This document shows, in pieces, positions 5,415 through 34,058 of a stretch of 64,000 bases of DNA. The notes beneath the pieces were generated by a model that was not told the DNA's origin, did not search any database, and worked only from the letters and a program-made list of their open reading frames with translations. Numbering within the stretch: the first letter of the stretch is position 1; every line of letters starts with the position of its first letter. The DNA comes from Sulfitobacter sp. D7 (GTDB lineage Bacteria; Pseudomonadota; Alphaproteobacteria; Rhodobacterales; Rhodobacteraceae). Made by a program: the position numbers and the translations under genes. The stretch lies in NCBI RefSeq assembly GCF_003611275.1, contig NZ_CP020694.1, forward strand, positions 2,914,001 to 2,978,000, read 5' to 3'.

Positions 5415-5474
5415 ACACCCGATCCTGTCACCCGCCATCGCCCTCGCCGGTGGCACCCGTGGCGGCTGGCCCCT

Positions 5475-8212: not shown

Positions 8213-8237
8213 CGGCACATCGTAGGATCCCCAAACG

Positions 8238-8465
8238 CTAGACCAAGAGAGCCCGGAGCGCGTACCCCGTGCGGTCGGTCCCCGCGGGGGTGCTGACCAC
8301 CGCCGCCAGTTGCGCCACCACATCGGCAGCCTCGATATGATCGGGCAAATCCATCATAAGACCGCCCCGCGCGGGTCCGGATCAGTCGGGCTGGCAAGGC
8401 CAGCGCCACATCCTCATCCCAATGGGCGATGATATTTTCCGCCTCTACCCAATGACCGGATCGGC
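8238..8465 (-). pseudogene. Frameshifted C-terminal gene relic
   Basis: Two short leftward frames read as one protein end if a frameshift near 8370 is allowed. The first segment is about 8375-8460 (AENIIAHWDEDVALALPARL); the second ends at TAG 8240-8238 (LMMDLPDHIEAADVVAQLAA). The composition is protein-like in each segment, with stops just beyond the joint. The parent family is not recognised. The rest of the 8213-8696 gap has a rightward fragment (about 8560-8690, with TLDAEESESTMFWQGRTASY) that also looks like a broken gene end. The whole gap reads as decayed coding DNA. Confidence 0.35.
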
Positions 8466-8696
8466 AAAGTGTTAAACGTGAAACCAAAAGGTTTCGACAG
8501 ACCGCTGAGCAGAAAGTGCAACGAGGGAAGGCCGTCTTCGGTGTGGGGTTGGCGCAATCAGCTGACCGAAGATGACATCGCCCCTTCACCCGCGCGGTCG
8601 AGCAATCCGAGCGCACATTGGACGCGGAGGAGAGCGAAAGCACTATGTTTTGGCAAGGGAGGACAGCTTCCTACGCCTGAAGGCCCGCGCGCCGGG

Positions 8697-9581: not shown

Positions 9582-9702
9582 CACGATAGAATTCCTACAG
9601 TCATACGACAATGCATCTGGCTGGCCAGCACAGCGTACTGCGCCTAATTAAAAAACCATAACACCGCAGCGCAATCGCTGCACAGCATATGGAGTATATC
9701 CG

Positions 9703-13045: not shown

Positions 13046-13068
13046 CTGGGGCTCCTCCCGGTCAAAGA

Positions 13069-13101
13069 AAAGCGCGGCACACGAGGGTGGTGCCGCGCTT
13101 T
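13069..13101 (-). terminator. Terminator after the siderophore receptor gene
   Basis: A 12-base inverted repeat (AAAGCGCGGCAC at 13069-13080 with its complement at 13090-13101) is followed, on the minus strand, by TTTTCTTT. It lies just past the receptor stop and before the SIP gene start, so it should end or weaken transcription between them. Confidence 0.7.
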
Positions 13102-13105
13102 AGGC

Positions 13106-15202: not shown

Positions 15203-15285
15203 GGCGGTCTCCGTAATAACCTAGTGAATCAGTCGGGATTTCCTTACCCCTATGATACGGAGGGCGCCAGAGTCAATCTGACTAA

Positions 15286-15299
15286 TTTAGTAAGTTATT
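15286..15299 (-). promoter_or_regulatory. Candidate iron-responsive operator before the receptor gene
   Basis: TTTAGTAAGTTATT (plus-strand orientation) lies 84 bases upstream of the receptor start and matches 12 of 14 bases with the element before the ABC binding-protein gene (19142-19155). It overlaps a perfect inverted repeat ACTAA-T-TTAGT at 15281-15291. The AT-rich, partly palindromic character suits a Fur/Irr/RirA-type site, but the regulator is not determined. Confidence 0.5.
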
Positions 15300-16124
15300 T
15301 TAAGCTGCGACTTCTTTTCGTGATTGCCCGATTTTATGGCGCCCGATCGGCACCATGCAGGGGGTCTGCGAAACGGGGTCGCTGACAATACGGCACGACA
15401 GGCCGAAGACGGCTTTCACCAGGTCCTCTGTCAGGACCTCAGCGGGCGGCCCCTCGGCGCGGATGCCGCCATCGCCCACGGCGATCAGGTGGTCGGCATA
15501 GCGCGCGGCGAGGTTGAGATCATGCAGCACCATGACGATCGTCGTGCCCTGCGCGGTGTTGAGATCGACAAGCAGGTCCAGCACTTCTACTTGATGCGCG
15601 ACGTCCAAAAAGGTTGTTGGCTCATCCAGCAACAACAGGTCGGTCTCTTGCGCCAAGGCCATGGCGATCCACACCCGCTGGCGCTGACCACCCGACAAGG
15701 TATCAAGATCGCGCTCGGCCAGTTCTTCGGTCCCGGTCGCGGCGAGCGCGCGGGCCACGGCGCGGTCGTCCTCTGCCGACCAGCGCGAGAACAGCCCCTG
15801 ATGCGGATGCCGCCCGCGCCCGACAAGGTCGGCCACGGCGATCCCCTCGGGCGCGATGGGCGATTGCGGCAACAACCCCATGACCTGCGCCAGCTTGCGC
15901 GATTTCATCTGATGCACCGACTGTCCATCGAGCAGAACCGCGCCGGATTTTGGCTGCAAAATCCGCGCCAGCGTCCGCAACAGGGTCGACTTCCCCGAGG
16001 CATTGCCGCCCACGATGGCGGTGATCTTGCCCGCAGGCAGGGAGAGAGAGACGTCCTCCAAAATCACGCGCTTTTCATAGCCCGCGCCCAGATTGCGCGT
16101 TTCAAGACGGTGGTCGTGGGTCAT
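15300..16124 (-). CDS. Iron-siderophore ABC transporter, ATP-binding protein
   Basis: The 274-residue ATPase has Walker A GGNASGKST (39-47), Q-loop, signature LSGGQRQRV (about 142-150) and Walker B LLLLDEPTTFLD, followed by the H-loop in VMVLHDLNLAARYAD. It is the FepC/FhuC type. It overlaps the permease upstream by an ATGA-type junction (16121-16124) and is the last gene of a four-gene leftward operon. It energises periplasm-to-cytoplasm transport of a ferric siderophore. Confidence 0.94.
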   Translation of the reverse strand: MTHDHRLETRNLGAGYEKRVILEDVSLSLPAGKITAIVGGNASGKSTLLRTLARILQPKSGAVLLDGQSVHQMKSRKLAQVMGLLPQSPIAPEGIAVADLVGRGRHPHQGLFSRWSAEDDRAVARALAATGTEELAERDLDTLSGGQRQRVWIAMALAQETDLLLLDEPTTFLDVAHQVEVLDLLVDLNTAQGTTIVMVLHDLNLAARYADHLIAVGDGGIRAEGPPAEVLTEDLVKAVFGLSCRIVSDPVSQTPCMVPIGRHKIGQSRKEVAA

Positions 16125-17152
16125 AGCGTGCCCCCATTTCTATTGGCGCGAACGATAAGATACAAAAGGAAGGGCGCGCCGACCGCCCCGGTGACGACGC
16201 CAACAGGCAAGCGCGCGGGCAAAAGGAACTGCCCCACGAAGTCACCCGCGATGACCAGCACTGCACCCACCAGACCGGCCGCCAGAAGCAATCCGCGGGA
16301 CCCCGGCAAGAGCCGCGCCGCAATGGGCCCCGCGAGGAAGGCGACAAAGGCAATCGGCCCGGTCGCAGCCGTCGCGATGGCCACAAGGCCGACGGCGGCC
16401 AGTGTCACCCGCAGCCGCGTGGCATCGGCCCGCACGCCAAGGGCTTCGGCGGTGTCATCGCCAAGGCGCAGCACCTCCAAATCGCGGGCGGTAACGGCCA
16501 GCAGCCCTCCGAACACCAACAGCGCCCCGGCCACGGGCAGGGCTTGGACAAGCTGCATACCATTGAGGCTGCCGGTCAGCCAACGCATCGCCTCGGCCCG
16601 GTCCCATGCGGGCGCTTCGAGCAAGACATAGGCTGTCACACTATCGAGCATGGCCGAGACGCCGATGCCAATCAGGATCAGCCGCGCCCCCGCAGCGCCG
16701 CGGCGCGAGGACAGCGCCCAGATCAGCGCCGCGACCCCAAGCCCCGCCGCCACCGCGACGAGCGACACCAACCACCCATCGAGGGCCAGAATAACGATGG
16801 CAAAGACCGCCGCCGCCCCCGCACTGGCGCTGATGCCGATGATGTCGGGGCTGGCCAGCGAATTGCGCAGCATGATCTGAAACGCCACCCCGCCCAAGCC
16901 AAAGCTGGCCCCGGCGAGCAGCCCCATGACCGCACGCGGCAAGCGCAACTCGGTCACCACGAAAGCGGCATTCGCCTCCGGCGCACCGGTCAGCGCGGCC
17001 CAGACATCGCCCGGCGGCACGCAGCCCCGTCCGCAGCTGAGCGTCAGCAGCACCAAGCCCAGCACAAGCGCCGCCAGAAACCCCAGCACCTGAAGGCGGC
17101 CCGCCGCCACGGGGCGGGTGCTGCGCGGGGCGGTGAAGGTCACATCGCTCAT
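16121..17152 (-). CDS. Iron-siderophore ABC transporter permease (FecCD family)
   Basis: This 343-residue membrane protein has about nine or ten hydrophobic helices and FecCD-family motifs (ELRLPRAVMGLLAGASFGLG, LRNSLASPDIIGISASAGAA, LVIAGDFVGQFLLPARLPVG with GAPFLLYLI). It overlaps both neighbours by four bases, so the subunits are translationally coupled. With the next permease it should form the heterodimeric channel. Confidence 0.93.
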   Translation of the reverse strand: MSDVTFTAPRSTRPVAAGRLQVLGFLAALVLGLVLLTLSCGRGCVPPGDVWAALTGAPEANAAFVVTELRLPRAVMGLLAGASFGLGGVAFQIMLRNSLASPDIIGISASAGAAAVFAIVILALDGWLVSLVAVAAGLGVAALIWALSSRRGAAGARLILIGIGVSAMLDSVTAYVLLEAPAWDRAEAMRWLTGSLNGMQLVQALPVAGALLVFGGLLAVTARDLEVLRLGDDTAEALGVRADATRLRVTLAAVGLVAIATAATGPIAFVAFLAGPIAARLLPGSRGLLLAAGLVGAVLVIAGDFVGQFLLPARLPVGVVTGAVGAPFLLYLIVRANRNGGTL

Positions 17153-18150
17153 AGCCCACGCATCCTGTGATTGCGCACCGTCCAGATAAAGAAGGGCGCG
17201 CCGACAAAGGCGGTGACGATGCCCACGTCCAACTCATTCGGGCGCGCGATGACCCGGCCCAGCACGTCCGACAGCCCCAGCATGGAGGCCCCCGCCAAGA
17301 CCGAGAGCGGCAACACCAGCTTGTAATCAACACCCGCGATCATCCGGCACAGATGCGGCACCACCAGCCCGACAAAGCCAATCGGCCCGCAAAGCGCCGT
17401 CGCCGTGCCGCAGAGGATCACAGCCCCCGCCGCCGCCATGACCCGGCCCAAGGCGACGCTCTGACCAAGGCCGGTGGCAAGCTCTTCGCCCAAGGCCAAT
17501 GCGTTGAGCACCCGGGCCGAGGCGAGGCTTAGCGCAAACCCGACCAGCGCGAAGGGCAAGGCGGGCAAGAGCGTCTCAAAGCTCGCGCCGCCGATGCCGC
17601 CCACCTGCCAAGATTGCACAGAGCCCGCGATGTCATTGCGCGGCAGGACCACCGCGATGATAAAGGCCGACACCGCCACAGAGGTCGCCGTGCCAGCAAG
17701 GGTCAGCTTCAGCGGGGTCGCCCCGCCCTGCCCGGCGGAGCCGATCAGATAGACGAAAACCGCCGTCACCCCGGCCCCGGCGATGCCGAGCCACAGAAAG
17801 CTCTGCGCGCCGCTGATGTCGAACCAAGCGATGCCCACCACGACGAAAAGCGCCGCGCCCGCATTCACGCCCAGAATACCCGGATCGGCCAGTGGGTTGC
17901 GGCTGATGCCCTGCATCACCGCCCCCGCAAGGCCAAGCGCGCCCCCCGCGAGAATGGCCAGCGCCGTGCGCGGCATCCGCACCGCGACCGCCGCAGCGCC
18001 GATGGTCTCAATCCGGCCGGTCATGCCCGCCCAGGTCTCGGCCCAAGGCACTGAACGCGCGCCCACGGTCAGCGACAGGCCGGTTATCAGCAGCAGCAGG
18101 CCCAGCAAAAGCGCGAGACCAGCCAGCCGCTGGGGGCGCTGCACCTGCAT
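17149..18150 (-). CDS. Iron-siderophore ABC transporter permease (FecCD family)
   Basis: The 333-residue protein is the second FecCD permease (VRMPRTALAILAGGALGLAG, NPLADPGILGVNAGAALFVV, FVGLVVPHLCRM, GAPFFIWTVRN). It is a multi-helix inner-membrane subunit. It abuts the binding-protein gene (shared base 18150) and overlaps the other permease by four bases, confirming a single operon. Confidence 0.93.
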   Translation of the reverse strand: MQVQRPQRLAGLALLLGLLLLITGLSLTVGARSVPWAETWAGMTGRIETIGAAAVAVRMPRTALAILAGGALGLAGAVMQGISRNPLADPGILGVNAGAALFVVVGIAWFDISGAQSFLWLGIAGAGVTAVFVYLIGSAGQGGATPLKLTLAGTATSVAVSAFIIAVVLPRNDIAGSVQSWQVGGIGGASFETLLPALPFALVGFALSLASARVLNALALGEELATGLGQSVALGRVMAAAGAVILCGTATALCGPIGFVGLVVPHLCRMIAGVDYKLVLPLSVLAGASMLGLSDVLGRVIARPNELDVGIVTAFVGAPFFIWTVRNHRMRGL

Positions 18151-19118
18151 TATTCCCCGCGCGTGGCGGCCGCGCTCAGCCGTGCAAGATAATCGTCGAG
18201 CACATTGTCGATCGACAGCGGCGTCGGGTTCGCGGCGGTGCCCATCGGATCATTCGCCAGTAGCACGACCGAGCCACGGGAAACGGCGGGGAAACGCGCG
18301 ATCAGCGGGTTCTTGGCCAGTTCGTCCAACCGCGCCTGATCGCCATAGGTGACCACGACATCCACGTCTTCGAACAGATCGATCCGCTCTGCGCTGACCC
18401 GGCCCGAGTATTTCCCGGCCTCGCTGGCCTCGCGCACCGCTTGGGGCGTTGCCATGCCGATGTCGGTCAGGAACTGCACCCGCTGGTCGGCGGCGGCGTA
18501 GAAACCGATGGTGCTGAGGTCGCGCGGATCGAGGTGAGTGACGAACATCCCGGTTTTGCCAGCCAGTTCGGGATATTCTTCGCGGGCGGTGGCGATACGC
18601 TCTTCGATCTCGGCGACCATCGCGTCACCTTCTTCGGCCATGCCAAGGCCCGCCGCGTTCTGGCGGATCATCTCGCGCCATGTCGTCGTCCATGCGGCTT
18701 CGGGATAGGCGATGACCGGCGCAATGCGGCTCAGCGTTTCATAATCCGACTGCGACAGACCGGAATAGGCGGCAAGGATCACATCGGGCTGGGTGCTGGC
18801 CACGGCTTCGAAATCAATGCCATCGCCCTCGTCAAAGAGCGTGGGCACCTCTGCGTCCAATTCATCAAGCTTTTCGATCACCCAAGGCAGCAGCCCATCG
18901 CCATCGTCGTCCCCCCATGAGGCGCGGGCAAAACCGACGGGTACGATGCCGAGCGCCAAGGGCACCTCGTGATTGGCCCAGCCGACAGACGCCACCCGTT
19001 CGGGCCGCTCTTCGATGATGGTTTCGCCAAAGGCGTGTTCAACGGTGACGGGAAAGTCCTGCGCCGAGGCGGCAGTCGCGCCAAAGGCCAAGCAAATGAA
19101 TGACAATGTTCTGAGCAC
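18150..19118 (-). CDS. Iron-siderophore ABC transporter, periplasmic binding protein
   Basis: This 322-residue protein has a Sec signal peptide (cleavage near ATAASAQ, residue 19-20) and a FhuD/FepB-type helical-backbone fold (HAFGETIIEERPERVASVGW, GIDFEAVASTQPDVILAAYS, RIAPVIAYPEA). It captures the ferric siderophore in the periplasm. It is the first gene of the operon. The 14-bp AT-rich element at 19142-19155 lies only 24 bases upstream, where it could block a promoter. Confidence 0.92.
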   Translation of the reverse strand: MLRTLSFICLAFGATAASAQDFPVTVEHAFGETIIEERPERVASVGWANHEVPLALGIVPVGFARASWGDDDGDGLLPWVIEKLDELDAEVPTLFDEGDGIDFEAVASTQPDVILAAYSGLSQSDYETLSRIAPVIAYPEAAWTTTWREMIRQNAAGLGMAEEGDAMVAEIEERIATAREEYPELAGKTGMFVTHLDPRDLSTIGFYAAADQRVQFLTDIGMATPQAVREASEAGKYSGRVSAERIDLFEDVDVVVTYGDQARLDELAKNPLIARFPAVSRGSVVLLANDPMGTAANPTPLSIDNVLDDYLARLSAAATRGE

Positions 19119-19480: not shown

Positions 19481-19652
19481 TGCCAGCTTGGGACGCGGTC
19501 ATTGTTCTGGTCAACGACGCCTTCGTGCAGACCCGTCTATCGGCGGGTATGTCTAACTATAGGTCGCGCTTTGCATCGCTGCATCTGGGCGGGGGTATAA
19601 ACGGGCTAGTCTTAAGGATAGGTTGCCGCCCCCCCCGGTCAGACACGCCCCG

Positions 19653-22268: not shown

Positions 22269-22751
22269 TTACTCGACACTAATGCGGTCAAGCTGCCAGA
22301 TCGACCGGCTGTAGACCAGTTCAGTCTGGTAGGCGATGTCACTGTCGTAAGGGTAGACGACCCAGAGTGGCCCCTTGTCCCGGCGCGACATTTCCTCGCC
22401 ATTGGTGTAGTAGGCGATGATCGGGCCGCCTTCGACGGCGTCGGACATCGGGATTTCCACAGCATAGTCATTGATGGCCGTCGCGGTGATCGTGCCGTCT
22501 TCGACGTTCAACGTGTCGAACAGATCCTTGAGGGAAACGCCTTCGAACTCCTGCGAGCCATCGGTCCAGATGGTTGTCGTTTCAAAGCTTGAGATCGGCA
22601 TCGACTGCAGGTCAGACAGGGTAAAGTTATGGGTTTCACCGGCCAGCGTCACGTTGAGCACGGCCTCTTCGTCTTGGGCGGCAACCGCCGAAGCAAGGCC
22701 CATTGTGAGCGCGGCTGCGGTGATGGTCATGCTAAGATTCTGAAAAATCAT
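22269..22751 (-). CDS. Exported molybdopterin-binding-fold protein, probable kinase partner
   Basis: The 160-residue protein has a signal peptide (cleavage near AVAAQDEE, residue 25-26). The rest resembles the oxidoreductase molybdopterin-binding (SUOX-like) fold: FTLSDLQSMPISSFETTT, FEGVSLKDLFDTL, GPLWVVYPYD. It contains no cysteine at all, so the Cys ligand of molybdenum in SUOX enzymes is absent. It is the first gene of a two-gene unit with the hybrid kinase, 6 bases apart, which suggests a periplasmic sensing or ligand-binding role. Cofactor binding is not shown. Confidence 0.85.
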   Translation of the reverse strand: MIFQNLSMTITAAALTMGLASAVAAQDEEAVLNVTLAGETHNFTLSDLQSMPISSFETTTIWTDGSQEFEGVSLKDLFDTLNVEDGTITATAINDYAVEIPMSDAVEGGPIIAYYTNGEEMSRRDKGPLWVVYPYDSDIAYQTELVYSRSIWQLDRISVE

Positions 22752-22835
22752 GTCTTGGTTCCTTATCTGGTGTTATGACCTGACCATACCCTGACCTAAT
22801 GAGAGGCGCGAATGCGCAGAAGCGCATCCCCCCTA

Positions 22836-22893
22836 TACCAAAGGATAGGCGCGCCTGCCCCGGAGCGCCCCGCCCTGCCATACCAAAGGATAG
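22836..22893. promoter_or_regulatory. Two direct copies of the TACCAAAGGATAG element
   Basis: TACCAAAGGATAG occurs at 22836-22848 and again at 22881-22893, 45 bases apart, in the divergent region between the kinase-partner gene and the response regulator. Related copies precede the surface-protein operon and the lysozyme-like gene. This spacing and recurrence suit binding sites of a regulator, most simply the LuxR-type regulator encoded at 23003 controlling itself. Confidence 0.55.
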
Positions 22894-23002
22894 CGGCGCA
22901 TGCCTTTGCGTCCTTTGTTCCTTGGGCTTTCATCTTTCTTTTCAAACGGGCACACTCTACCCATTAGAGAACGCCGGCCATTTGGGCTTCAGGAGATCTA
23001 TT

Positions 23003-23623
23003 ATGTCTTTGCGTATTTTAATTGCCGATGATCACGACATGGTTCGAGAGACCATTGCCATGTTCCTTGATGCCGATGGGGCGACCGTCACCGAAGCGGC
23101 ATGTGATCTGGCCGGTGCCTTGGACAAGATCAAGTCCGAGCCGCCCTACGATCTGGTTCTGCTCGATCATACGATGCCCGGTATGAAGGGGTTGCAGGGC
23201 CTGCAAACCGTGCTTGGTATCAACGAGGGCCGCCCCGTCGGGCTGATTTCTGGCACCGCCACCCGGCTGATCGCCGAACAGGCGTTGGAAATGGGGGCAA
23301 TCGGCTTTTTGCCCAAGACCCTGCCCGCCAAGTCACTGGTCAACGCGGTCCGCTTTATGGCCGCCGGGGAGACCTATGCCCCGGTCACCTTCATGTCGGG
23401 CAAAGACAATCCCGAAGAGACGGATTTCGAGAAAGCCTTGTCAGAGCGTGAGCGCCAAGTGCTGCGCGGATTGATGAGCGCGCAGTCGAATAAAGAGATC
23501 GCGCGCGACCTCGATCTGCAAGAAGTGACGATTAAACTGCACGTGAAAACACTTTGCCGAAAACTGGACGCAAAGAATCGTACGGATGCAGCGATCATTG
23601 CGCGCGACGCGGGCTTCGTTTGA
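23003..23623 (+). CDS. LuxR/NarL-type response regulator
   Basis: This 206-residue regulator has a receiver domain (1-120) with acidic pocket ADDHD, phospho-Asp55 in LVLLDHTMPG and Lys105 in GFLPKTLP. A LuxR helix-turn-helix follows (about 143-200; LSERERQVLRGLMSAQSNKE, IARDLDLQEVTIKLHVKTL). The ATG at 23003 follows AGGAG at 22991-22995; the upstream open frame is not needed. It faces the hybrid-kinase operon and precedes the surface-protein cluster, so it is the likely output of that phosphorelay. Two copies of a shared element lie in its promoter region. Confidence 0.93.
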   Translation: MSLRILIADDHDMVRETIAMFLDADGATVTEAACDLAGALDKIKSEPPYDLVLLDHTMPGMKGLQGLQTVLGINEGRPVGLISGTATRLIAEQALEMGAIGFLPKTLPAKSLVNAVRFMAAGETYAPVTFMSGKDNPEETDFEKALSERERQVLRGLMSAQSNKEIARDLDLQEVTIKLHVKTLCRKLDAKNRTDAAIIARDAGFV

Positions 23624-23715
23624 GGCCCGTTTTCGCCGCCTGAAACGCCCCGGCCCGGACCCTGCGCGGCCCCCCGTAGCGCGCCCAATTTGCCCTCTGG
23701 CTTGTAAACCATAAT

Positions 23716-23739
23716 CGCCCGCCCCGCGCGGGCGTTTTT
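23716..23739 (+). terminator. Intrinsic terminator after the response regulator
   Basis: A 7-bp GC stem (CGCCCGC 23716-23722 with GCGGGCG 23728-23734) is followed by TTTTT. It lies 93 bases after the regulator stop and separates it from the surface-protein genes, which therefore have their own promoter. Confidence 0.8.
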
Positions 23740-23843
23740 GCGTTTAGCCTATGGCGTTTTGCACCGGATCAAAGATTCGGAAACTGCACTTTTCCCTGCA
23801 AAATTAACCATCTATCCGCCCCGCCCCCAGCGCCATCCCCGCG

Positions 23844-23891
23844 CCAAATGATAGGCCGGGGCGCGACCCGATAGGGGCGCCTATCCTTTCG
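23844..23891. promoter_or_regulatory. Inverted pair of CAAAGGATAGG-type elements before the surface operon
   Basis: CCAAATGATAGG (23844-23855, plus) and CGAAAGGATAGGCGCC (minus strand, 23876-23891) face each other within the 420-base non-coding stretch upstream of 24043. The second overlaps a palindrome-like GATAGGGGCGCCTATC (23870-23885). They resemble the copies in front of the response regulator. Apart from these elements and the terminator, the stretch 23740-24042 shows no gene. Confidence 0.5.
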
Positions 23892-24042
23892 ACTAACCGT
23901 CTGACCAGAGGCTCAGCGAGTTAACCCTTCGCTCAGATGATATCGGTATTCGATTCCCCGAAGATGAGAACAGGACAACGCAATGAGCGTGTCCGTTCAT
24001 TGCAACTGCCGGCTCTTCACCGGCCCACAAGGGAACTACTAG

Positions 24043-24555
24043 ATGCGTATCCATATCTCCCAATCATCCAAGACACTCATTGCGAGTACGGCCTTGTCCC
24101 TCGCGGGTTTCGCGGCTGCCGCCGACGCGCTCACGAGCGAATTCTCCTTCCGCGTGGTGGAAACCAATGCCGAGGGCGAAGAAGTCCTCGTTGAGCGTGA
24201 AACGATCCGCCCGGGCGAGGTGATCTCTTATGAGCTGCGCCACCAGAACACGACCGAAGGCGCGATGGAGGGGCTCGTCATCGCCGCCCCGGTTCCTGAT
24301 GGCGTCTCTCTCGCCCTTGGGGCCGAAGTGACCTCTGTCGCCGCGGTCTTTGAAGTCCAGGCCGAGATGGACCCAGAGCAGGAAGGGCTGGAATGGTCGA
24401 CCGTTCCCGCCACCCGCAAGGTCGTCGATGCCAATGGCAACATGACCGAAGAGCCTCTTCCCGAAGAAGCCGTCGCCGCCGTGCGCTGGACCCTCTCGGA
24501 ACCGCTCGAAGCAGGCGCCTCCGCCTTCAACAGCTACCGCGTGCGCCTGAACTAA
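24043..24555 (+). CDS. Exported DUF11-like surface protein (small)
   Basis: The 170-residue protein has a signal peptide (cleavage near FAAAADA, residue 25-28) and one beta-sandwich domain of the DUF11 type (RPGEVISYELRHQNTTEGAM, GLVIAAPVPDGVSLALGAEV, WTLSEPLEAGASAF). It contains no cysteine in the mature part. It is the first of three exported DUF11-type genes in a row, 60 bases before the next. It may be a minor subunit or partner of the larger proteins. No biochemical role is known for such small members. Confidence 0.85.
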   Translation: MRIHISQSSKTLIASTALSLAGFAAAADALTSEFSFRVVETNAEGEEVLVERETIRPGEVISYELRHQNTTEGAMEGLVIAAPVPDGVSLALGAEVTSVAAVFEVQAEMDPEQEGLEWSTVPATRKVVDANGNMTEEPLPEEAVAAVRWTLSEPLEAGASAFNSYRVRLN

Positions 24556-24563
24556 TTCCGGCG

Positions 24564-24587
24564 CCTCTCTCTCCACTCTCTCTCTCC
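24564..24587 (+). repeat. CT-rich short repeat tract
   Basis: A run of CT dinucleotides with one CCA break lies between the first two surface-protein genes. A second, purer CT tract occurs after the lysozyme-like gene at 34072-34090, the only other one seen. Confidence 0.6.
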
Positions 24588-24615
24588 AACTACTATAGAA
24601 CTAGGGAATATTAAC

Positions 24616-27249
24616 GTGAAAAACCATACAACCTTCCTGCGCTCCGTGAGCGCTGTTGCTCTGACCGCCGTGATCGGCACTGTCGCTTTCGCGGCACCCG
24701 AAGCGGGCTCGGTCATCGGCAACCAAGCCGTCGCGACCTATACCAACGCGGCGGGCGACACGATCACGGTAACCTCCAACACCGTTGAGACGATCGTTCA
24801 GCAAGTTGCCGGCGTGACATTGACCTCCGACAACTCCGAGACGATCGCCCCCGGCGGCAAGGCCTTCCTGCCGCACATCATTACCAACGATGGTAACGGC
24901 CCGGATGCCTTCGCTCTTACCGCGGTGGAAACCGACACCGGCACGCTTGATACGTCGCAACTGGTCTTCTACCCCGACGCCAATATGGACGGCGTGGCCG
25001 ATAGCGCCACACCGCTGACCGAGACTCCGACCCTTGCCCCGGGTGAGCAGTTCGGCATCGTGATCGAAGCCTCCGTCGCCTCCACGGCGACCGGCTCTGA
25101 CACGATCACCGTGACGGCGGCCTCGACCCTCGACGGCACCGTGCTGAGCACCAACACGGACACGCTGACAATCTCCAACGACGCGATTGTCGAGTTGGTC
25201 AAATCGATGACAGCAGACCCCTCAGGCGGCGCCAATCCAAACATCATCGACGCGGGCGACGTAGTGACCATCACGCTGACCTACTCCAGCACCGGTCTCG
25301 CTGCCGCCAACAACTACTCTGTGCAGGACGTGCTCGATGGCCGCCTGGCCTACGTTCCCGGCTCGGCCCGCTGGTCTGACTCTGCTACACCGCTGGACGA
25401 TGACAACGGTTCCACCGTCGTGGACACCACAAACGGCTCCGGCGAGACAATCGCTTGGGACTATGATGACGGCCAAAACGTCAACTTCCTGATCTCCTCT
25501 GTCGGCTCTGGCCGCTCGGGTGAGGTGACCTTCCGTGCCGTGATCGCGGATACCGCCAATGCGGGCATCATCACCAACGTGGCGACCCAAGACGTTGACG
25601 GCACAGCCTTCCCGCCGTCGAACACCGCCTCTGTCACCGTGGACAACCAATATGCAGTGGCGATTGCCGATACGGCAATCAACTCCAACGGCACCGCCAA
25701 TGCGGCAATCGCCTCGGGCACCGACGATGACGCCGCGAGCAACGATGTCGTCACGGAAACCGGCGATGTCTACCAAGGCGGCGTGATCCGTCAGGAATTT
25801 GTGCTGACCAACCTCTCCAACAGCCCGGACAGCCTGCAGCTCGATGTGGCCAATGTGGACTTCCCGAACGGTACCACCTTCCGCTTTGTCGGCGCTGATG
25901 GTGTCACACCGGTGGTAAGCTCTGTTGGTCCGCTGGCCATCGGGGAAAGCGCCAAAGTGACGTTGATTGCCACATTGCCATCAGACGTCACACCAACCGC
26001 GACCACCAACTACACCGCGACAATCACCACCACGTCGGACAGCTCGGGCGTCTCTGACGTATCGACCGCTGAATTCTCAGGCGCGGTGCTGGCAGCTTCG
26101 GTTGACCTTGAAAACGCCGTGGTCGGTTCCGAAGGTGATGGCGCGGCCCCGACAAACGGTGGCAACCCATGGATCACCGAAACGGCGGACCCCGGTGAAC
26201 CTGTCGTCTTTGACATGCTGGTCGAAAACAACGGCCCGACCTCGGACAGCTTCAACCTGTCGCTGGATCAGGCCCTGCCCGCAGGCTGGACGGTTGAGTT
26301 CCAACTGCCAGACGGGTCGATCGTGTCGAACACAGGCACCATCCCGGCAGGTGATTCGCAGGCCATCCGTGCGGTGATCACCCCGGCCGATGACGCCCTG
26401 CCCGGCGATACCTTGGTCGACATCGCGGTCGTCTCTTCCGTCTCGGGACAGGGTGACCGTATCGTCAACCAAGTCACGGTCAACGAAATCTACGACGTGA
26501 AGATCATCGACAACCAAAGCGCGCAGGCTTCGCCGGGTGGTATCGTGGACATCCTCCACACCATCTCGAACGAAGGGAACGTGGCCATCACCGAGGCGTC
26601 GATCACCGAATCCGGTCTGACCAACTTCTCCGGCGCGATCTTCTGGGACCAGAACGGCAATGGCGTGATCGATCCATCCGAGCCGGTGATCGACAACTTC
26701 GATGACCTGACCGACGGTGTTTCGCCGGGTGTCAACGGGCTTGCTCCGGGCGACAGCATCTCGCTGATCTACCGTGTGCAGACGCCATCGACAGCCACCC
26801 AAGGTGTCTCCGAAGTCGGCACGATCTCGATCAACAACACGTTGAACGGCACCGGGACCGATATCGACCAGACCAACAACGCCGTCGAAGACCGCGTGGT
26901 CATCATCTCGGGCGATGTCACACTGAGCAAGTATCAGTATATCGACGCGGGCTGCGATGGCACCGTGGGCACCTTCACCAAGACCCGTCTTGATGTCGAG
27001 CCCGGCCAGTGCATCCGCTACATGGTCGAAGCCGAGAACACGGGCGCCTCTGCGGCGGACAACGTGATCATCTCGGACGCCGCACCGGCCTATACCGCGG
27101 TCACAAACTGTGGCGGTGCCTGCCCAGAGAGCCTGTTCCCGGGCACCAGCACGGCCACCGTCACCTCGACCAACGTATCGAGCACACATGGCACGATCCT
27201 TCCCGGCGGCTTTGCCCGGGTAGAGTTCACCGTGCGGGTCGACGACTAA
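24616..27249 (+). CDS. Large exported DUF11-repeat protein
   Basis: This 877-residue protein starts at GTG 24616. Its signal peptide ends near AFAAPEAG (residue 26-30), followed by several DUF11-type beta-sandwich repeats of 120-150 residues (VTNDGNGPDAFAL-like, ITLTYSSTGLAAANNYSV, FVLTNLSNSPDSLQL, MLVENNGPTSDSFNLSL, ISNEGNVAITEASI). Calcium-type acidic loops such as YPDANMDGVAD and WDQNGNGVIDPSEP occur. The last repeat has four Cys. There is no transmembrane or sorting anchor, so it may be secreted or held by the barrel protein downstream. A 12-bp stem-loop follows the stop. Confidence 0.88.
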   Translation: MKNHTTFLRSVSAVALTAVIGTVAFAAPEAGSVIGNQAVATYTNAAGDTITVTSNTVETIVQQVAGVTLTSDNSETIAPGGKAFLPHIITNDGNGPDAFALTAVETDTGTLDTSQLVFYPDANMDGVADSATPLTETPTLAPGEQFGIVIEASVASTATGSDTITVTAASTLDGTVLSTNTDTLTISNDAIVELVKSMTADPSGGANPNIIDAGDVVTITLTYSSTGLAAANNYSVQDVLDGRLAYVPGSARWSDSATPLDDDNGSTVVDTTNGSGETIAWDYDDGQNVNFLISSVGSGRSGEVTFRAVIADTANAGIITNVATQDVDGTAFPPSNTASVTVDNQYAVAIADTAINSNGTANAAIASGTDDDAASNDVVTETGDVYQGGVIRQEFVLTNLSNSPDSLQLDVANVDFPNGTTFRFVGADGVTPVVSSVGPLAIGESAKVTLIATLPSDVTPTATTNYTATITTTSDSSGVSDVSTAEFSGAVLAASVDLENAVVGSEGDGAAPTNGGNPWITETADPGEPVVFDMLVENNGPTSDSFNLSLDQALPAGWTVEFQLPDGSIVSNTGTIPAGDSQAIRAVITPADDALPGDTLVDIAVVSSVSGQGDRIVNQVTVNEIYDVKIIDNQSAQASPGGIVDILHTISNEGNVAITEASITESGLTNFSGAIFWDQNGNGVIDPSEPVIDNFDDLTDGVSPGVNGLAPGDSISLIYRVQTPSTATQGVSEVGTISINNTLNGTGTDIDQTNNAVEDRVVIISGDVTLSKYQYIDAGCDGTVGTFTKTRLDVEPGQCIRYMVEAENTGASAADNVIISDAAPAYTAVTNCGGACPESLFPGTSTATVTSTNVSSTHGTILPGGFARVEFTVRVDD

Positions 27250-27260
27250 CCGACCTCTCC

Positions 27261-27298
27261 GGTGCCCCCGGGCTGAGCAACGCTCACCCGGGGGCACC
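27261..27298 (+). terminator. Strong stem-loop between the two large surface genes
   Basis: GGTGCCCCCGGG (27261-27272) and CCCGGGGGCACC (27287-27298) form a perfect 12-bp stem with a 14-base loop. There is no clean T-run after it, so it may act as an mRNA-stabilising or attenuating structure rather than a full terminator. Confidence 0.6.
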
Positions 27299-27368
27299 CC
27301 CTTCTACCCCCGTTTTCGTCTCCCCAATTATTTCATGCCCTTTCTAGGGATCGCACAGGAGCAAGCTG

Positions 27369-30300
27369 ATGCGCAGTTTCCTTATGTCTAAAGCCCGCCC
27401 GGCTCTGGCCCTGATCAGCGCCTCCGCAATGAGCCTGAGCCTTCTGCCCCACACCGCCGCCGCCGCCCCGGCCCCCGCCGGATCTTTCATCCGCAACGTG
27501 GCAGAAGTCAGCTATTTCAATACCTCCCTTGGCATCATGGAACGTGTCTTCTCAAACCCGGTTCGGGCCGAAGTCGCCGCAGTTCCCGGGCTGGAAGTGA
27601 CCGGCTACTCCGACCTTCTGCTGACCCGCGGCGCCTTTGGCCGCTACCATTTCGACGTGATCAACACCGGCAACGTGCCGCTTTCCACATCGCTCAGCAT
27701 TGGCGAACAGGGCAGCGCCCAAATGATGTCCCGCCAATCGCTTTTCCCCGACCTGAACGGCAACGGCCTGATCGATGTCGAAGACCGGGCGGTCGACATG
27801 TCCGCGCCCATCATGCTCGCGGCGGGAGAGCGGCTGCAACTGATCTATGAGTTCCGCATTTCCGCAGACACCCCTGTAAGCACCCAGTTCGCCAGCATGT
27901 TGACGGCCTCTGCCGTGACCGAAGATGGCCAAAGCCTGAGCGAAGAAGCGGTGGGGGTCTCGCGCGTCGAAGAAGGCGGGCTCGAAGTTTCCAAAGAGCA
28001 GGTCGTCTCGGAAAACGACGAAGGCGCGCTCATCACCTACACCCTGCGGTTGCGCAACGACTCCGAGCGGGACGCCTTTGGCTATCCGCAGATCGACGGC
28101 CAGCCCATCGTGATCGACGGCACACCCCGGACCGGTGTCTTGCTGCGCGATGCGATCCCGCTGAATACCGTGTTTAACACGGTGCAGGATTCGGGGACCA
28201 TGACGGCCCTTGTCCATATGCGCGGCGCCCCCGCGCACCAATACCTCAGCGTGGTCCCCGCAGGGCTTTCCCACGATGTAGATGCGGTGGCCTTCTTTCA
28301 TGAGGGCGACTACGCCATCGGCCATGCCACCGATCCCAGCTTTTCGGTGCGCGTGCCTGCCGCCTTGGGCAAGGTCGAGGTGCACAACACCGCCTCCGCC
28401 TTTTACAACAACCAAGAGAGCACACTGCTGCTGGCCTCCAACACCGTGATCTATGACCGCGAGTCGGAGACAGCTGGCACATTGGTGTTCGAGCACCCCG
28501 AAACCGGCGCCGATCAACCCTATGGCACACCGGGCAGCGACACCCGTCTGCGTCTCACCTCAGGCACCTGCAACGTCAGCACCGAGGTCGACAGCACAGC
28601 GGTGACGATCCGCAGCATGCTGACCGGCGACGTGGAAACGATCATCGCGACCGAGACCGGCGCGAATACCGGCATATTCCTCACCCCCGCCCTGCCGTTG
28701 GCGCAGATGTCGCCCGCCGTCGCCGGGGATCAGGTCATGGCCACAGACTTTGGCGACAGCTTCATCGCCACGGCGACCTGCGACAGTGAGGTGCTTGAGG
28801 ACGATCTGATGATCAACCCCGGCAACTTCCTGTTCAACTCCGTCTCCAACGCCCCGGTTTCCGATGTGTCTGTCGCCCTTGTCGATGCGCGTACGGGCAA
28901 TGAAATGGCCCGCACGCAGACTGACCAACGCGGGTTCTTTACCTTTTCCGAAATGCCCGAAGGCGACTACCGCTATGCCGTGATGGATGCGCCCACTTGG
29001 GTCTTCCCCTCCGCCCGGCTGGACTATGCCGGGATGGGCCGCAAGGTGATGGATGCAGGTTGGGGCAACGCCTTCAACCACGCAGGCGGCGCGCTTTTTG
29101 TCTCCGATATTCCGGTGGATCCGAATTACGGCACGCCGCTGGCCTTGGACAAGGCTGCGGACCTCGACAGCGTGGGCCATGGTGAATTCGTCACCTATAC
29201 GCTCAGCTTTACCAACAACATGCATCAGGCCCTGATCGGTGGCGAAATCCTCGACCGCCCCGCCTATGGTGTGAACTTTGTTCCCGGCACGGTCACCCTT
29301 AACGGTGAGCCGCTGGACGATCCGCAAGAGATCGGCAACGGCGATCTGCGCTTTGACGTGGGCATGCTTGAGCCGCTGACAAGCCATGAGCTGACCTATG
29401 TGATGCAATTCTCTGCAGCAGCCCGCGAAGGCCGCATTGAAAACACCGCGATCCTGTCGGGCCGCCAAGCCGGCACCGGGGCACTGCAACAGTCGCAGAC
29501 CGCCCGCGCCCTGGTACGGCTCGACAATTCGGGCGGTGTTTTTGCCCGGCAGGGCACCGTCCTGGGCGCCGTGTTCATGGATTGCAACGGCAACGGTCTG
29601 CGCGACCGCGCCGAGGATGAGCCGGGCATTCCCGGCGTGCGCATCGTGACCCAAGAAGGGCTCTTTGTTGTGACCGATATCAATGGTGCCTATTCGCTCA
29701 ACGGCATGCGCCCGGTGACCCACGCTTTCCTCGTGCAGCCCGAAACCCTCCCCGCTGGGAGTGCGGTGCAAGTGACCCGCACCAACGATCTGCGCCGCGG
29801 TGGGTCGCGCGTGGTGCCACTGAAAAAGGGCGAGCTTAGAACCGAGAACTTTGCCGTGGCCCAATGCACCCCCGAAGCGCTCAAGGAAGTCAGCAAACGT
29901 CGTGATCATTTCGCCGGAAAACGTCAGACCCCGGGCGTGAATGCAACAGATCTGCCGATCGACGGCCAGCGCAGCAGCACCCGGTCGGTGCGCGGCGAGG
30001 CTGGCATCGCCACCACCACCCAGCTGACCCCCGGCATGGTCGCCGCACAAAACGAAGAGGCCGGGGTCGACGCCTCCTCTGTGGCTCAAGCCGCCCGTGC
30101 CTCGGCGCAGCGCCAAACGCTCGACAGCATGATCCCTAACCTTGATAGCGCCCCCGGCTTTGTCGACTTTGCCGAAGACACCGCCGTCACCCGCGCCACC
30201 CAGAACATCCGGATTAAGGGCAAGGCTGACTTGACGCTGACGCTTTTGGTGAATGGCCGCGAGCTTGGCGGCGACCGGGTAGGAGAGCGCACCAGTCTGG

Positions 30301-33110
30301 AAAAGAACAACGTGCAGGCGCTGGAATATGTGGCGGTGAAACTGGGCTCGGGCGAGAACGTGCTGACGCTGGTGGGCCGTGACGGCTTCGGCATCGAACG
30401 TGTCCGCAAGGAACTGCGCCTTACCGCGCCCGGCAAACCCGCCCGGATCGAGATCCTCTTGCCGGAAACCGCCGCGGCCAATCCCGCTTCTGTGGTGCCG
30501 GTGGTGGTGCGCGTGCTCGACGCCCGGGGTCGCCCGGTGCCCGCGTCCGGCACGGTGACCCTTTCGGCCCGCCGGTCGCTTTGGGATGTGACCGACATCC
30601 GCAGCAGCGCGCCCGGCGTGCAGGCCTATCTCGACAATGGCGAGGCGACCTTTAACCTCATCCCACCGCAGGCCTCTGGCCCCGATCTGATCACCGTACG
30701 GTCGTCCTTTGGCGAGGCTGAAGCGCGGCTGACCTTCACCCCGGATCTGAACGAACGGGTTCTGATCGGCGTGATCGAAGGCGCGGTATCGCTGAGCGGG
30801 GACGCGGGCAACGTCATCGAAGAAGACCGCATCAGCGCTTTCGAAGATACCACAACAGGCATCCGCGGTGAGCTTTACCTCAAAGGGGTGATCCGTGGCG
30901 ACGCCCTGCTGACCCTGCGCTACAGCTCGGACCGTGACACCGAAGACAGCCTGTTTCGCGACATCCGCGGAGAGGAATACTACCCCGTCTATGGCGACAA
31001 TTCCGAACGCGGTGCCGATGCGCAATCTTCATCCAACCTTTTCGTGAAGGTGGAGAAGGGCCGCTCTTACGTGCTCTACGGCGATATCGCCATCGAGCCT
31101 GAGGCCAGCGCGCTGAAACTGGGTGGCCTGCAACGTGTCGCAACCGGCGCAAAAGGTCACTGGGAGAACGACCGCGTATCGGTCACCGTCTTTGCGGCCC
31201 GCACCGCGCAGGAGCAGCAGGAACAGGAAATCCGCGGGCGCGGTGTTTCTGGCCCCTATGACCTTGACCTGAGCGGCTATGTGCAGGGGTCCGAGCGTGT
31301 GGAAATCTTGGTTCGGGACGAAGATGGCGGCGATATCCTATCGGCCACGCCCCTGCTGCGCGGCACCGACTACTTGCTCGACTTCTTCCGCAACACGATC
31401 ACCTTCGACACGCCGGTGCGCCAATTCGACCTTGACGGTAACCCCGTGTCAATCCGCGTGACCTATGAGGTCGAAGCCGAGGGCGCCGAGGCCTATTGGC
31501 TCTACGGAGGCGAGGTGAACTATGCCCTGTCCGAGCGGACCTCCATCGGCGCCCGTGCGGTGCATGCCGACGCACCCCTTGGCAACACGGCCCGCCAGCG
31601 GATGCACTCTGCCTATATCCAGCACGAAGACCGCCAAGGTGGTCTGTGGGAGGCCGAAGTCGCCCGCTCGGAAAACGCCATGGGCGAGAAAGACACCGCC
31701 GCGCGCCTGTCCTACGAGCTGAAGACCGAGACCCGCCATTTCGCATTCGAGGCGATCCACACCGGGCGTGATTTCTACGCTCAGGGCGGACTGGCCCGCC
31801 CGGGCACCAGCCAAGTCCGCCTAAGCTATGGCGAAGAAATCGATCAGCGCAGCGACATCGCCTTTGGCGCGGAATACACCCGTGACCGGGTCAACGACAG
31901 CGCTCGGCTGACCGTGGATGCGATCTATTCGCGGCATCTGAGCCAGACCCTGCGCGGCGAGATTGGTCTTGAATACAGCCGCGACCGCACCGCCAGCGGC
32001 AGCGAGACCGACACCGCCCTGATCCTCGGCGCGCATTGGACCCCAGCGGCCCGTCCCGGCACAGTGATCGAAGCCCAGCTGCGCGCGCCGCTCGGTGGCG
32101 ACGCCCCCACTGAACTGACCCTCGGCCTCTATGACGAGCCCAAGAACGGCTGGCGCGTCTATAATGAGATCGAGCTTCAATTCGGCAGTGACGAGCTGGT
32201 CACCCGCGCCGCCTATGGTTTCACCTACACGCTGAACGAATGGGTCACTGGCCGAACCGAGATGACCAAAGCCGGCGGCACAAGCGACACCACCATGGTG
32301 CAGGGTCTGTCGGTCGATTGGGATATCAACGAAAGCACCAATCTGCGCGCCGATCTTGAGCATTCGCGCAACCTTGAGACCGATGACGGTGAGCTGACAT
32401 CATTCGCGATCGGCACAAGCTGGCAGTCGGCGGATGGCGATTGGGTCGGCGATGCCGAACTGGAGACCACATGGGAAGAGTCCGGCAAAACCCACTACGC
32501 CAGCATCGGCATCGCGGGCAATGTCACCCCGGACCTGACCGTTCTGGCGCGCAGCCGTGCCGCGCTTGATCGGCGCGATAGCGAAGACACCCGCCGTATG
32601 CGCACCCGCATCGGCGCAGCCTATCGCCCCAAGGACAATGCCCGCCTTGATGTGCTGGCGTGGTACGAACACCGGCTGGAAGAGAAACACGCCAGCACGG
32701 AAACGCACCTATGGTCGATCGATGTGAATTACGAGATCGATGCCGACCTGCGGATCAACGGCAAATATGCCGGCCAGTACCAAAAGATCGGCACCCATGC
32801 CGGCGCGGCGGCCAATACCACCACGCAGCTGATCCAAGGCGGTCTGAACTACGAATTCGGCGACGACCGTTTCCAACTCGGCCTCAACGCCACGCATCTG
32901 TGGGACAGCGAGGGCAACTCTTCTAACGGGATCGGCGCCGAATTCGGCTTCACCCCGCGCGAAGGTGTCCTGCTGGCACTCGGCTACAACAAGGCCCGTG
33001 GCCGGGTGGCCGGGCAAAGCGGCCTCTATGACGAAGGGTTCTATTTCCGGTTCAACTTGCTGTTGGACAACTCACTCTGGACCCAGTTCGACCAGTTCCT
33101 CGGAAGCTGA
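27369..33110 (+). CDS. Giant exported DUF11/SdrD-like protein with C-terminal outer-membrane barrel
   Basis: The 1913-residue protein follows AGGAG and has a signal peptide to about 34 (TAAAAPAPAG). DUF11-type domains (about 50-380) lead to a Cys-containing domain (385-480), a carboxypeptidase-regulatory-like fold (480-560; SDVSVALVDARTGNE) and another DUF11 domain (590-710). An SdrD-B-like domain (728-800; AVFMDCNGNGLRDRAEDEPG), an Ala/Gln-rich linker (840-930) and an invasin-like Ig domain (1020-1125) follow. About 780 residues with alternating polar/apolar strands end the protein (YYPVYGDNSERG, SYVLYGDIAIEP, last residues QFDQFLGS). I infer an outer-membrane barrel displaying or secreting the repeats; the function is unknown. 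Confidence 0.88.
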   Translation: MRSFLMSKARPALALISASAMSLSLLPHTAAAAPAPAGSFIRNVAEVSYFNTSLGIMERVFSNPVRAEVAAVPGLEVTGYSDLLLTRGAFGRYHFDVINTGNVPLSTSLSIGEQGSAQMMSRQSLFPDLNGNGLIDVEDRAVDMSAPIMLAAGERLQLIYEFRISADTPVSTQFASMLTASAVTEDGQSLSEEAVGVSRVEEGGLEVSKEQVVSENDEGALITYTLRLRNDSERDAFGYPQIDGQPIVIDGTPRTGVLLRDAIPLNTVFNTVQDSGTMTALVHMRGAPAHQYLSVVPAGLSHDVDAVAFFHEGDYAIGHATDPSFSVRVPAALGKVEVHNTASAFYNNQESTLLLASNTVIYDRESETAGTLVFEHPETGADQPYGTPGSDTRLRLTSGTCNVSTEVDSTAVTIRSMLTGDVETIIATETGANTGIFLTPALPLAQMSPAVAGDQVMATDFGDSFIATATCDSEVLEDDLMINPGNFLFNSVSNAPVSDVSVALVDARTGNEMARTQTDQRGFFTFSEMPEGDYRYAVMDAPTWVFPSARLDYAGMGRKVMDAGWGNAFNHAGGALFVSDIPVDPNYGTPLALDKAADLDSVGHGEFVTYTLSFTNNMHQALIGGEILDRPAYGVNFVPGTVTLNGEPLDDPQEIGNGDLRFDVGMLEPLTSHELTYVMQFSAAAREGRIENTAILSGRQAGTGALQQSQTARALVRLDNSGGVFARQGTVLGAVFMDCNGNGLRDRAEDEPGIPGVRIVTQEGLFVVTDINGAYSLNGMRPVTHAFLVQPETLPAGSAVQVTRTNDLRRGGSRVVPLKKGELRTENFAVAQCTPEALKEVSKRRDHFAGKRQTPGVNATDLPIDGQRSSTRSVRGEAGIATTTQLTPGMVAAQNEEAGVDASSVAQAARASAQRQTLDSMIPNLDSAPGFVDFAEDTAVTRATQNIRIKGKADLTLTLLVNGRELGGDRVGERTSLEKNNVQALEYVAVKLGSGENVLTLVGRDGFGIERVRKELRLTAPGKPARIEILLPETAAANPASVVPVVVRVLDARGRPVPASGTVTLSARRSLWDVTDIRSSAPGVQAYLDNGEATFNLIPPQASGPDLITVRSSFGEAEARLTFTPDLNERVLIGVIEGAVSLSGDAGNVIEEDRISAFEDTTTGIRGELYLKGVIRGDALLTLRYSSDRDTEDSLFRDIRGEEYYPVYGDNSERGADAQSSSNLFVKVEKGRSYVLYGDIAIEPEASALKLGGLQRVATGAKGHWENDRVSVTVFAARTAQEQQEQEIRGRGVSGPYDLDLSGYVQGSERVEILVRDEDGGDILSATPLLRGTDYLLDFFRNTITFDTPVRQFDLDGNPVSIRVTYEVEAEGAEAYWLYGGEVNYALSERTSIGARAVHADAPLGNTARQRMHSAYIQHEDRQGGLWEAEVARSENAMGEKDTAARLSYELKTETRHFAFEAIHTGRDFYAQGGLARPGTSQVRLSYGEEIDQRSDIAFGAEYTRDRVNDSARLTVDAIYSRHLSQTLRGEIGLEYSRDRTASGSETDTALILGAHWTPAARPGTVIEAQLRAPLGGDAPTELTLGLYDEPKNGWRVYNEIELQFGSDELVTRAAYGFTYTLNEWVTGRTEMTKAGGTSDTTMVQGLSVDWDINESTNLRADLEHSRNLETDDGELTSFAIGTSWQSADGDWVGDAELETTWEESGKTHYASIGIAGNVTPDLTVLARSRAALDRRDSEDTRRMRTRIGAAYRPKDNARLDVLAWYEHRLEEKHASTETHLWSIDVNYEIDADLRINGKYAGQYQKIGTHAGAAANTTTQLIQGGLNYEFGDDRFQLGLNATHLWDSEGNSSNGIGAEFGFTPREGVLLALGYNKARGRVAGQSGLYDEGFYFRFNLLLDNSLWTQFDQFLGS

Positions 33111-33133
33111 CCGGGAGACTCAGCCCCGAGGGA

Positions 33134-33167
33134 GAGCCACGTTCCAAGCGCATCTGGAACGTGGCTC
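33134..33167 (+). terminator. Terminator of the surface-protein operon
   Basis: A perfect 13-bp stem (GAGCCACGTTCCA 33134-33146 with its complement 33155-33167) and 8-base loop lie 24 bases after the giant gene, followed by ATTCCTCTTT. Confidence 0.7.
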
Positions 33168-33230
33168 ATTCCTCTTTCAGAGCGCTGCAGCGCTCCAAAG
33201 GTGACCTGGCCTATTCCTAGTGCCGGACCA

Positions 33231-33246
33231 ACTATCCTTTCGAGAC
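33231..33246 (-). promoter_or_regulatory. Further copy of the CGAAAGGATAG element
   Basis: ACTATCCTTTCGAGAC reads TCGAAAGGATAGT on the minus strand. It matches the inverted copy before the surface operon over CGAAAGGATAG. It lies about 90 bases upstream of the lysozyme-like gene. Confidence 0.45.
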
Positions 33247-33335
33247 GCTAACTAGCTGTCCGCATTAATGAAATATCGATTTTAAGCGCGCATGATCAGG
33301 GTCAACGCAACATCCAACCCAGATGGGAAACCCAG

Positions 33336-34058
33336 ATGAAAAAGCTCGCTGCCAGCACTGCCTTTTGCCTGATCGCCGCCACCCTTTCCGGTGCGGCAAA
33401 TGCAAATGATTTCGCCCGCTTCGACAGCAGGAAGATCGCCGTCACCGGCTTGAATTTCGCCCTGTCACCCTCCGCTTCGGAGGACCGCATTTACCTTAAC
33501 CGCAGCATGATCAAGACGACCGCCAAACGCGCACCGCGCAAGCTTGCCATTCCCACGCGCGGGGGGCCATCCGCCGCCGTGCGCCATGTCATCGCGTCGG
33601 CTGAGGCCGGGGGCAAAGGCTATGACGCGGTGCAACACGGGGCACGGGTCAAGCCGCCGAAGCGCCCCACAAGCATGACCATCGGCGAAATCTACCGCTG
33701 GATCGCGGCCACCCCCGGCCAGCCCCATGCCATTGGGCGCTACCAGTTCATCCCCAACACCTTGAAAACGCTCGTCGCCGAAGCCGGGATGAGCAAAAGT
33801 GACGTCTTTACCCCACGGGTCCAAGACCTGTTGGCCGACCTATTGCTCGAAGATGCGGGCTTTACCCCCTTCATGAAGGGCAAGATCAGCCGCCATCGCT
33901 TTATGGAGAACCTCGCCCGCATCTGGGCCGGGCTGCCCACGTCAACGGGAAGGTCTTATTATCACGGCCATGCGGGCAACCGGGCCGTCATCACGTGGAA
34001 TGAGTTCGACAGCCATATGAAAAGCATTTTTGAAAACATGGCACGCGGCATCTCCTAA
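33336..34058 (+). CDS. Secreted lysozyme-like (GH104-type) muramidase
   Basis: This 240-residue protein has a signal peptide (cleavage near GAANAND, residue 23-24), a basic linker and a lysozyme-like domain from about 85. Catalytic Glu is expected in IASAEAGGKGYDAV, and family motifs are SMTIGEIYRW and HAIGRYQFIPNTLKTL. The fold is that of phage-type muramidases that cut peptidoglycan. It lies directly after the surface-protein operon and has one copy of the shared element upstream, so it may open the wall for assembly of those proteins. A terminator follows. Confidence 0.85.
   Translation: MKKLAASTAFCLIAATLSGAANANDFARFDSRKIAVTGLNFALSPSASEDRIYLNRSMIKTTAKRAPRKLAIPTRGGPSAAVRHVIASAEAGGKGYDAVQHGARVKPPKRPTSMTIGEIYRWIAATPGQPHAIGRYQFIPNTLKTLVAEAGMSKSDVFTPRVQDLLADLLLEDAGFTPFMKGKISRHRFMENLARIWAGLPTSTGRSYYHGHAGNRAVITWNEFDSHMKSIFENMARGIS

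Follow-up and report, generated by a model that had tools for sequence, protein, structure and literature searches.

A 64,000-nucleotide stretch of the Sulfitobacter sp. D7 genome (hereafter the window) carries a gene cluster in which a phosphorelay, acting through a palindromic DNA site, probably controls the surface display encoded by a constant triad of genes. The cluster comprises a hybrid histidine kinase, a small exported protein with the PF00174 fold and a LuxR/NarL-type response regulator (together the trio), the triad itself, which encodes exported proteins of 170 (D170), 877 (D877) and 1913 amino acids (aa), the last ending in a beta barrel (the barrel protein), and an exported lysozyme-like protein. 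Comparison of sequences between genomes showed the operator and its link with the regulator, the constancy of the triad and a form in which passenger and barrel are split; it also gives strong support to the view that the neighbouring regulator controls the triad. The initial annotation had proposed a single regulated surface system, an adhesin or a surface layer, with its own phosphorelay; co-occurrence of the regulator and the recurrence of the promoter element across genomes speak for the system, but not for a phosphorelay restricted to it.

The operator and the associated regulator

Shared promoter elements had been predicted to join the parts of the cluster, and such an element was found. 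The sequence CTATCCTTT occurs four times in the window, every copy in a promoter of this cluster, where 0.26 copies were expected, and none of 100 shuffles reached four. Two copies lie between the PF00174 and regulator genes, one before the D170 gene and one before the lysozyme-like gene. Relatives show the element to be one half of the palindrome CTATMCNNNNGKATAG. Of the 31 trio loci left after removal of near-duplicates, 26 have this palindrome between the sensor (PF00174) and regulator genes, with no more than one of ten core positions mismatched; it was not found there in L043, L045, L049, L060 and L076.

The association between site and regulator was assessed in 58 Sulfitobacter genomes, 38 of which match the regulator at E 1e-25; 35 of these, with at least 52% identity, were counted as regulator-bearing and three with 33-42% identity were left out of that number. 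A perfect site was present in 34/35 regulator-bearing genomes and in 1/23 others (p 9e-14; this and the following Fisher tests on genome counts ignore kinship), while a reversed control pattern was distributed evenly over the same genomes (23/35 with and 14/23 without the regulator, p 0.46). In 31/35, no more than 1 kb separated a perfect site from the regulator or PF00174 gene, the exceptions being G017, G030, G075 and G080. The same association was seen in a family-level set of 295 genomes, nearly one per genus, with perfect sites in 86/124 genomes that have the regulator and 24/171 that lack it (p 7e-23).

Regions upstream of the D170 gene were scanned with a matrix built from the trio-locus sites alone and not trained on D170 sites. 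Ten near-duplicates (L021-L025, L059, L061, L068, L075 and L083) were dropped from 39 regions, and 14 of the 29 scored regions reached at least 12 near -160 (22 start positions, -170 to -149), a score attained at these positions by only 2/5800 shuffles. Among these 14 are L027, L028, L069 and L070, whose genomes do not have the trio beside the triad; L027, L028 and L069 share the same site and are related to one another.

The regulator also accompanies the barrel protein. A full-length orthologue of the latter was detected in 17/58 Sulfitobacter genomes (the copy in G063 being in three frame pieces), and the regulator was present in 17/17 of these against 18/41 of the others (p 2e-5), with at least 80% identity in 15/17. 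The two genes lay within 10 kb in 11/17 genomes, were 557-587 kb apart on the same contig in G012, G013 and G071, and were on separate contigs in G005, G072 and G075. At family level the barrel protein was found in 14/295 genomes; the regulator (E 1e-55) occurred in 13/14 genera with it and 111/281 without it (p 8e-5), and a regulator of at least 70% identity in 8/14 barrel genomes and 1/281 others, namely G151 (p 2e-11). Here the genes were within 11 kb in 12/14 genomes and far apart in G257. The large protein thus does not stand mostly without the regulator; its occurrence without the kinase/regulator pair in most genomes was the pattern that the initial annotation had named as contrary to its proposal.

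A number of observations weigh against control of the cluster through the palindrome. No strong site was detected in 15/29 D170 upstream regions, and the window's own region scores 6.6 at -170 to -149, corresponding to a half-site, to which the site before the triad is reduced in the window's clade. In the window's own genome, control matches outnumber one-mismatch sites (24 against 8 per strand), and the 58 Sulfitobacter genomes hold hardly more perfect sites than control matches in total (75 against 66); since totals are near or below controls, the site means little without its position. In G135 the triad is present and neither regulator nor site was found. Most linked lysozyme-like genes lack a strong site, and relatives of the lysozyme-like protein occur in 42/58 Sulfitobacter genomes, many of them matching through the C-terminal two thirds only.

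Owing to these last two points, the membership of the lysozyme-like gene is less certain, and by sequence comparison it appears bound to the set less tightly than the triad is. TATCCTTT was present 97-118 bp upstream of the gene in 10/29 regions, seven of which are the window and its close relatives. Scores of at least 13 were obtained upstream of it in L062 (-124) and L087 (-165), and far upstream in L063 and L064, all four from genomes that keep the lysozyme-like and barrel genes apart. The prediction of a secreted lysozyme-like enzyme agreed with an exported protein matching the PHROG endolysin family phrog_90 (E 6e-16), from which its activity is predicted, and source records give some homologues the names muramidase, lysozyme family or GH104. 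It had no Pfam match, and a comparison with PDB sequences gave a single match at chance level. A conserved small open reading frame (ORF) of ~60 aa was seen near the lysozyme-like gene in other loci (L026:4615-4797, L040:16878-17060, L048:16857-17039 and L074:4853-5032), preceded at 92-94 bp by an operator-like site (the L074 spacing by arithmetic); relatives of it were also found in L073 and L077, and no match in the window.

Perfect operators were noted at further genes. The only other one in the window's own genome (L098:7748, C1:3193748) is 77 bp before an ORF with an NYN domain, and the same site at this gene was found in the close relative G026. A gene for a haemolysin-III-related membrane protein has a perfect operator 91 bp upstream in G012 and G072, and a differing perfect operator in the same place in G013 (L102:5409, L103:5768 and L104:6037). 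Operator sites also recur before a 334-aa ORF in G013 and G071.

The trio, the triad and the barrel protein

The domains predicted for the hybrid kinase were confirmed by Pfam; its gene, placed by the initial annotation within 22269-34058, lies outside that span, adjoining the PF00174 gene on the same strand. The components of a hybrid-kinase phosphorelay are present, with HisKA, HATPase, receiver and Hpt domains in the kinase and a receiver-helix-turn-helix output protein, and the phosphorylation motifs SHE.RTP and MD.SMP and the Hpt stretches were seen in an alignment of kinase orthologues. Gene neighbourhood supports a presumed pairing of the kinase with the adjacent regulator.

The regulator, predicted as a divergent LuxR-type protein, matched PF00072 and PF00196, but its listed ORF, 22799-23623, appears too long. 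The first 61 residues matched weakly and apart from the rest in L023, L024 and L025 (S. dubius), and in distant loci the match began at residue 59-71. Because these N-terminal residues are poorly matched in relatives, the ATG at 23003 is the likely start, and this would give a 251-bp divergent promoter holding two operators.

The exported cofactor-fold protein of the initial annotation was recovered as a small protein with a partial PF00174 match (E 1.8e-7). Molybdenum is bound through a cysteine ligand in this sulfite-oxidase-type family. No cysteine was found past residue 20 in 32/33 loci, L085 having one, which argues against an enzyme; a functional molybdoenzyme is therefore unlikely. The lack of cysteine, together with its constant pairing with the kinase, suggests that the protein has a role in sensing.

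When gene order around homologues of the 1913-aa protein was compared, as the initial annotation had suggested, the three triad genes were together in 40/41 loci, the exception, L029, being cut by a contig end. This count combines 12/12 named Rhodobacteraceae loci and 28/29 loci of a second set, with some genomes in both. All three proteins had been described as DUF11-type. Pfam matches to DUF11 or SdrD_B support this for the 877- and 1913-aa proteins but not for D170, which had no Pfam match and reached only E 0.024, below the cut-off, with a DUF11-type repeat model. The N-terminus of the D877 orthologue in G028 resembles residues 15-191 of the barrel protein (32%).

The SdrD B-type domain of the barrel protein was detected with Pfam (4e-12) and by a PDB profile (1.2e-7). 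The protein alone had no match among PDB sequences at E 0.1; a profile of 57 homologues matched repeat or immunoglobulin (Ig)-type domains, SdrD best, and gave no match for the barrel region in the same search. The barrel was modelled with a pLDDT (predicted local distance difference test) of 86 and about 36 strands. Passenger and barrel are encoded by two adjacent genes in some relatives, in which the barrel is homologous over 784 columns. Signal peptides, Ig-like repeats and the barrel make a surface structure a reasonable assumption, and attachment is the best guess for its task. In L061 (G063) the barrel gene (4474-10111) and the kinase gene (15310-17912) are both in frame pieces, reflecting either joint decay or sequencing error.

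These data would fit a mechanism in which the exported, cysteine-less PF00174 protein and the hybrid kinase read a periplasmic signal and phosphate then passes from the kinase, by way of its receiver and Hpt domains, to the LuxR-type regulator. The latter would bind CTATMCNNNNGKATAG directly at its own divergent promoter, giving feedback, and ~160 bp before the D170-D877-barrel operon; it may also bind, less certainly, before the lysozyme-like gene. The C-terminal barrel would insert in the outer membrane with the DUF11/SdrD_B half displayed or exported, D877 and D170 would be partner subunits of the 1913-aa protein, and the lysozyme-like enzyme might open peptidoglycan for assembly.

Alternative readings and known systems

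The phosphorelay had been taken to belong to the surface system alone; the same trio, with its operator, was found beside exopolysaccharide genes at other loci and so looks like a shared surface-control module. Seven trio loci without a linked barrel gene were inspected. Exopolysaccharide genes surround the trio in L051, L052, L053 and L088, L072 has a GalU-like gene only, L054 has no exopolysaccharide genes and L073 carries small exported proteins in their place. In L053, Pfam identified an SLBB export protein, a nucleotidyl transferase and a WecG/sugar-transferase fusion; chain-length-type and polymerase-type genes had no Pfam match and were named by eye. Operators at the exopolysaccharide loci lie before the PF00174 gene and also between the regulator and the chain-length-type gene; a further one precedes the export gene at three of the four loci. 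In a tree of 37 regulators six exopolysaccharide-type loci group together, but those linked to a barrel are not monophyletic: L030 groups with L073.

It is possible, if rather unlikely, that the trio is mainly an exopolysaccharide regulator and the barrel operon one among several envelope targets, captured beside it in some lineages, in which case the two need not serve one structure. The operators before exopolysaccharide genes at the four loci, the presence of the regulator in 111/281 family genomes without the barrel and the occurrence in G035 of one trio copy of each type (L030 and L052) all favour this, whereas the near restriction of regulators of at least 70% identity to barrel genomes (8/14 against 1/281) does not, nor does the window's own genome, which has a single such regulator at E 1e-25. 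Mere neighbourhood of the genes, with no common regulation, would agree with the 557-587 kb between regulator and barrel gene in three genomes and with the separate terminator-like hairpins; it is very improbable given the co-occurrence of regulator, site and barrel, and the D170 promoters of those distant-gene genomes still hold the site (L027 and L028).

The barrel might also be a dedicated secretion pore, usher-like or of another kind, that builds a fibre of D170 and D877, rather than a simple anchor, and this is unlikely. Fold comparisons of the model took in SprA, LptD, SlpA and ushers; the ushers FimD and PapC gave the best though moderate structural alignment, with a plug-like part inserted, but OpdK and AlgE score 14.7, close to the usher. 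An usher barrel has 24 strands, against about 36 in the model. By sequence no relation was found to five Escherichia coli ushers (hhalign probability 0.3%), so that the barrel was rejected as a PF00577 usher, the usher family was absent from its Pfam matches at E up to 5, and no chaperone was recognised in the set.

Passengers and outer-membrane barrels, in fused or neighbouring genes, recall two-partner and autotransporter secretion, in which a passenger is combined with such a barrel. The present barrel is much larger and no related sequence was found; FhaC aligned with the model over 223 residues only (root-mean-square deviation 11.6). SprA of the type 9 secretion system is a 36-strand barrel (PMC10994853). 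It was absent from the profile matches among PDB sequences, other type 9 genes not having been sought, and was not among the matches listed in the fold comparison of the long model. Gram-positive SdrD/DUF11 surface proteins share the SdrD B-type domain and DUF11 repeats, but here no wall anchor was recognised and a C-terminal barrel stands in its place. For the trio, a likeness is seen in DbfQ-DbfRS of Vibrio cholerae, in which, as described in PMC12714742, a small periplasmic protein is encoded beside a two-component system controlling the biofilm life cycle. By that description it is a kinase/regulator pair, in contrast to the hybrid kinase with Hpt, PF00174-fold partner and LuxR-type regulator seen here.

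No description of this gene set was among the matches listed in one open-access library, most subscription journals lying outside that scope. That the set represents an undescribed outer-membrane display or secretion machine of the Rhodobacterales, with a ~36-strand barrel, fused or separate DUF11 passengers and switching by a portable surface-control phosphorelay that governs exopolysaccharide at other loci, is put forward as a doubtful proposition. Control of the triad through the palindrome, which we prefer, offers a concrete DNA operator and regulator module shared in one marine family by surface genes of two kinds, those of a large protein system and those for exopolysaccharide, so that surface switching becomes directly testable. 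It also marks out a family of large barrel proteins of no known function, in which the existence of both fused and split forms points to a partnership of passenger and barrel.

Layout of the locus and neighbouring genes

The features of the locus are listed below; signal peptides, export of the window's proteins and the kinase membrane spans were judged by eye. The cluster had been described as one unit but is probably not one operon. Two terminator-like hairpins suggest four transcription units, and a single operon was provisionally rejected on this hairpin scan, which also yields 12 matches in shuffles.

Table. Features of the cluster, in window positions
Feature	Position	Strand	Remarks
Weak operator-like site, two mismatches	19606..19621	+	Just downstream of the kinase gene; assigned to no gene; may be chance
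Hybrid histidine kinase, 869 aa	19653..22262	-	PAS, HisKA, HATPase, receiver and Hpt (Pfam); membrane spans by eye
Exported 160-aa protein, partial PF00174 fold	22269..22751	-	No cysteine; putative periplasmic signal partner of the kinase
Operator CTATACCAAAGGATAG	22833..22848	+	Perfect palindrome match
Second operator	22878..22893	+	One mismatch
LuxR/NarL-type response regulator, 206 aa	23003..23623	+	Listed ORF from 22799
Terminator-like hairpin	23716..23734	+	3' of the regulator; pattern match only
Operator half-site	23881..23896	+	-162 of the D170 gene; position as in relatives' full sites
Exported 170-aa protein (D170)	24043..24555	+	First gene of the constant triad
Exported 877-aa DUF11 protein (D877)	24616..27249	+	
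1913-aa barrel protein	27369..33110	+	N-terminal repeat/DUF11/SdrD_B passenger half, two Ig-like domains, C-terminal beta barrel
Terminator-like hairpin	33134..33167	+	3' of the barrel gene; pattern match only
Operator half-site	33232..33247	+	-104 of the lysozyme-like gene
Exported lysozyme-like protein, 240 aa	33336..34058	+	Phage endolysin/GH104-type by source names

Beside the kinase, window positions 12002-19118 encode a siderophore-interacting protein, a TonB receptor, an ABC ATPase, a FecCD permease and a periplasmic binding protein, which together look like a cluster for iron or cobalamin uptake; one of these genes still adjoins the kinase in L021, L022 and L041. Further away, a 2.6-kb stretch without long ORFs contains an ORF resembling, by eye, the end of an IS3-type transposase (56782-57087) and a helix-turn-helix-like ORF (57595-57882).
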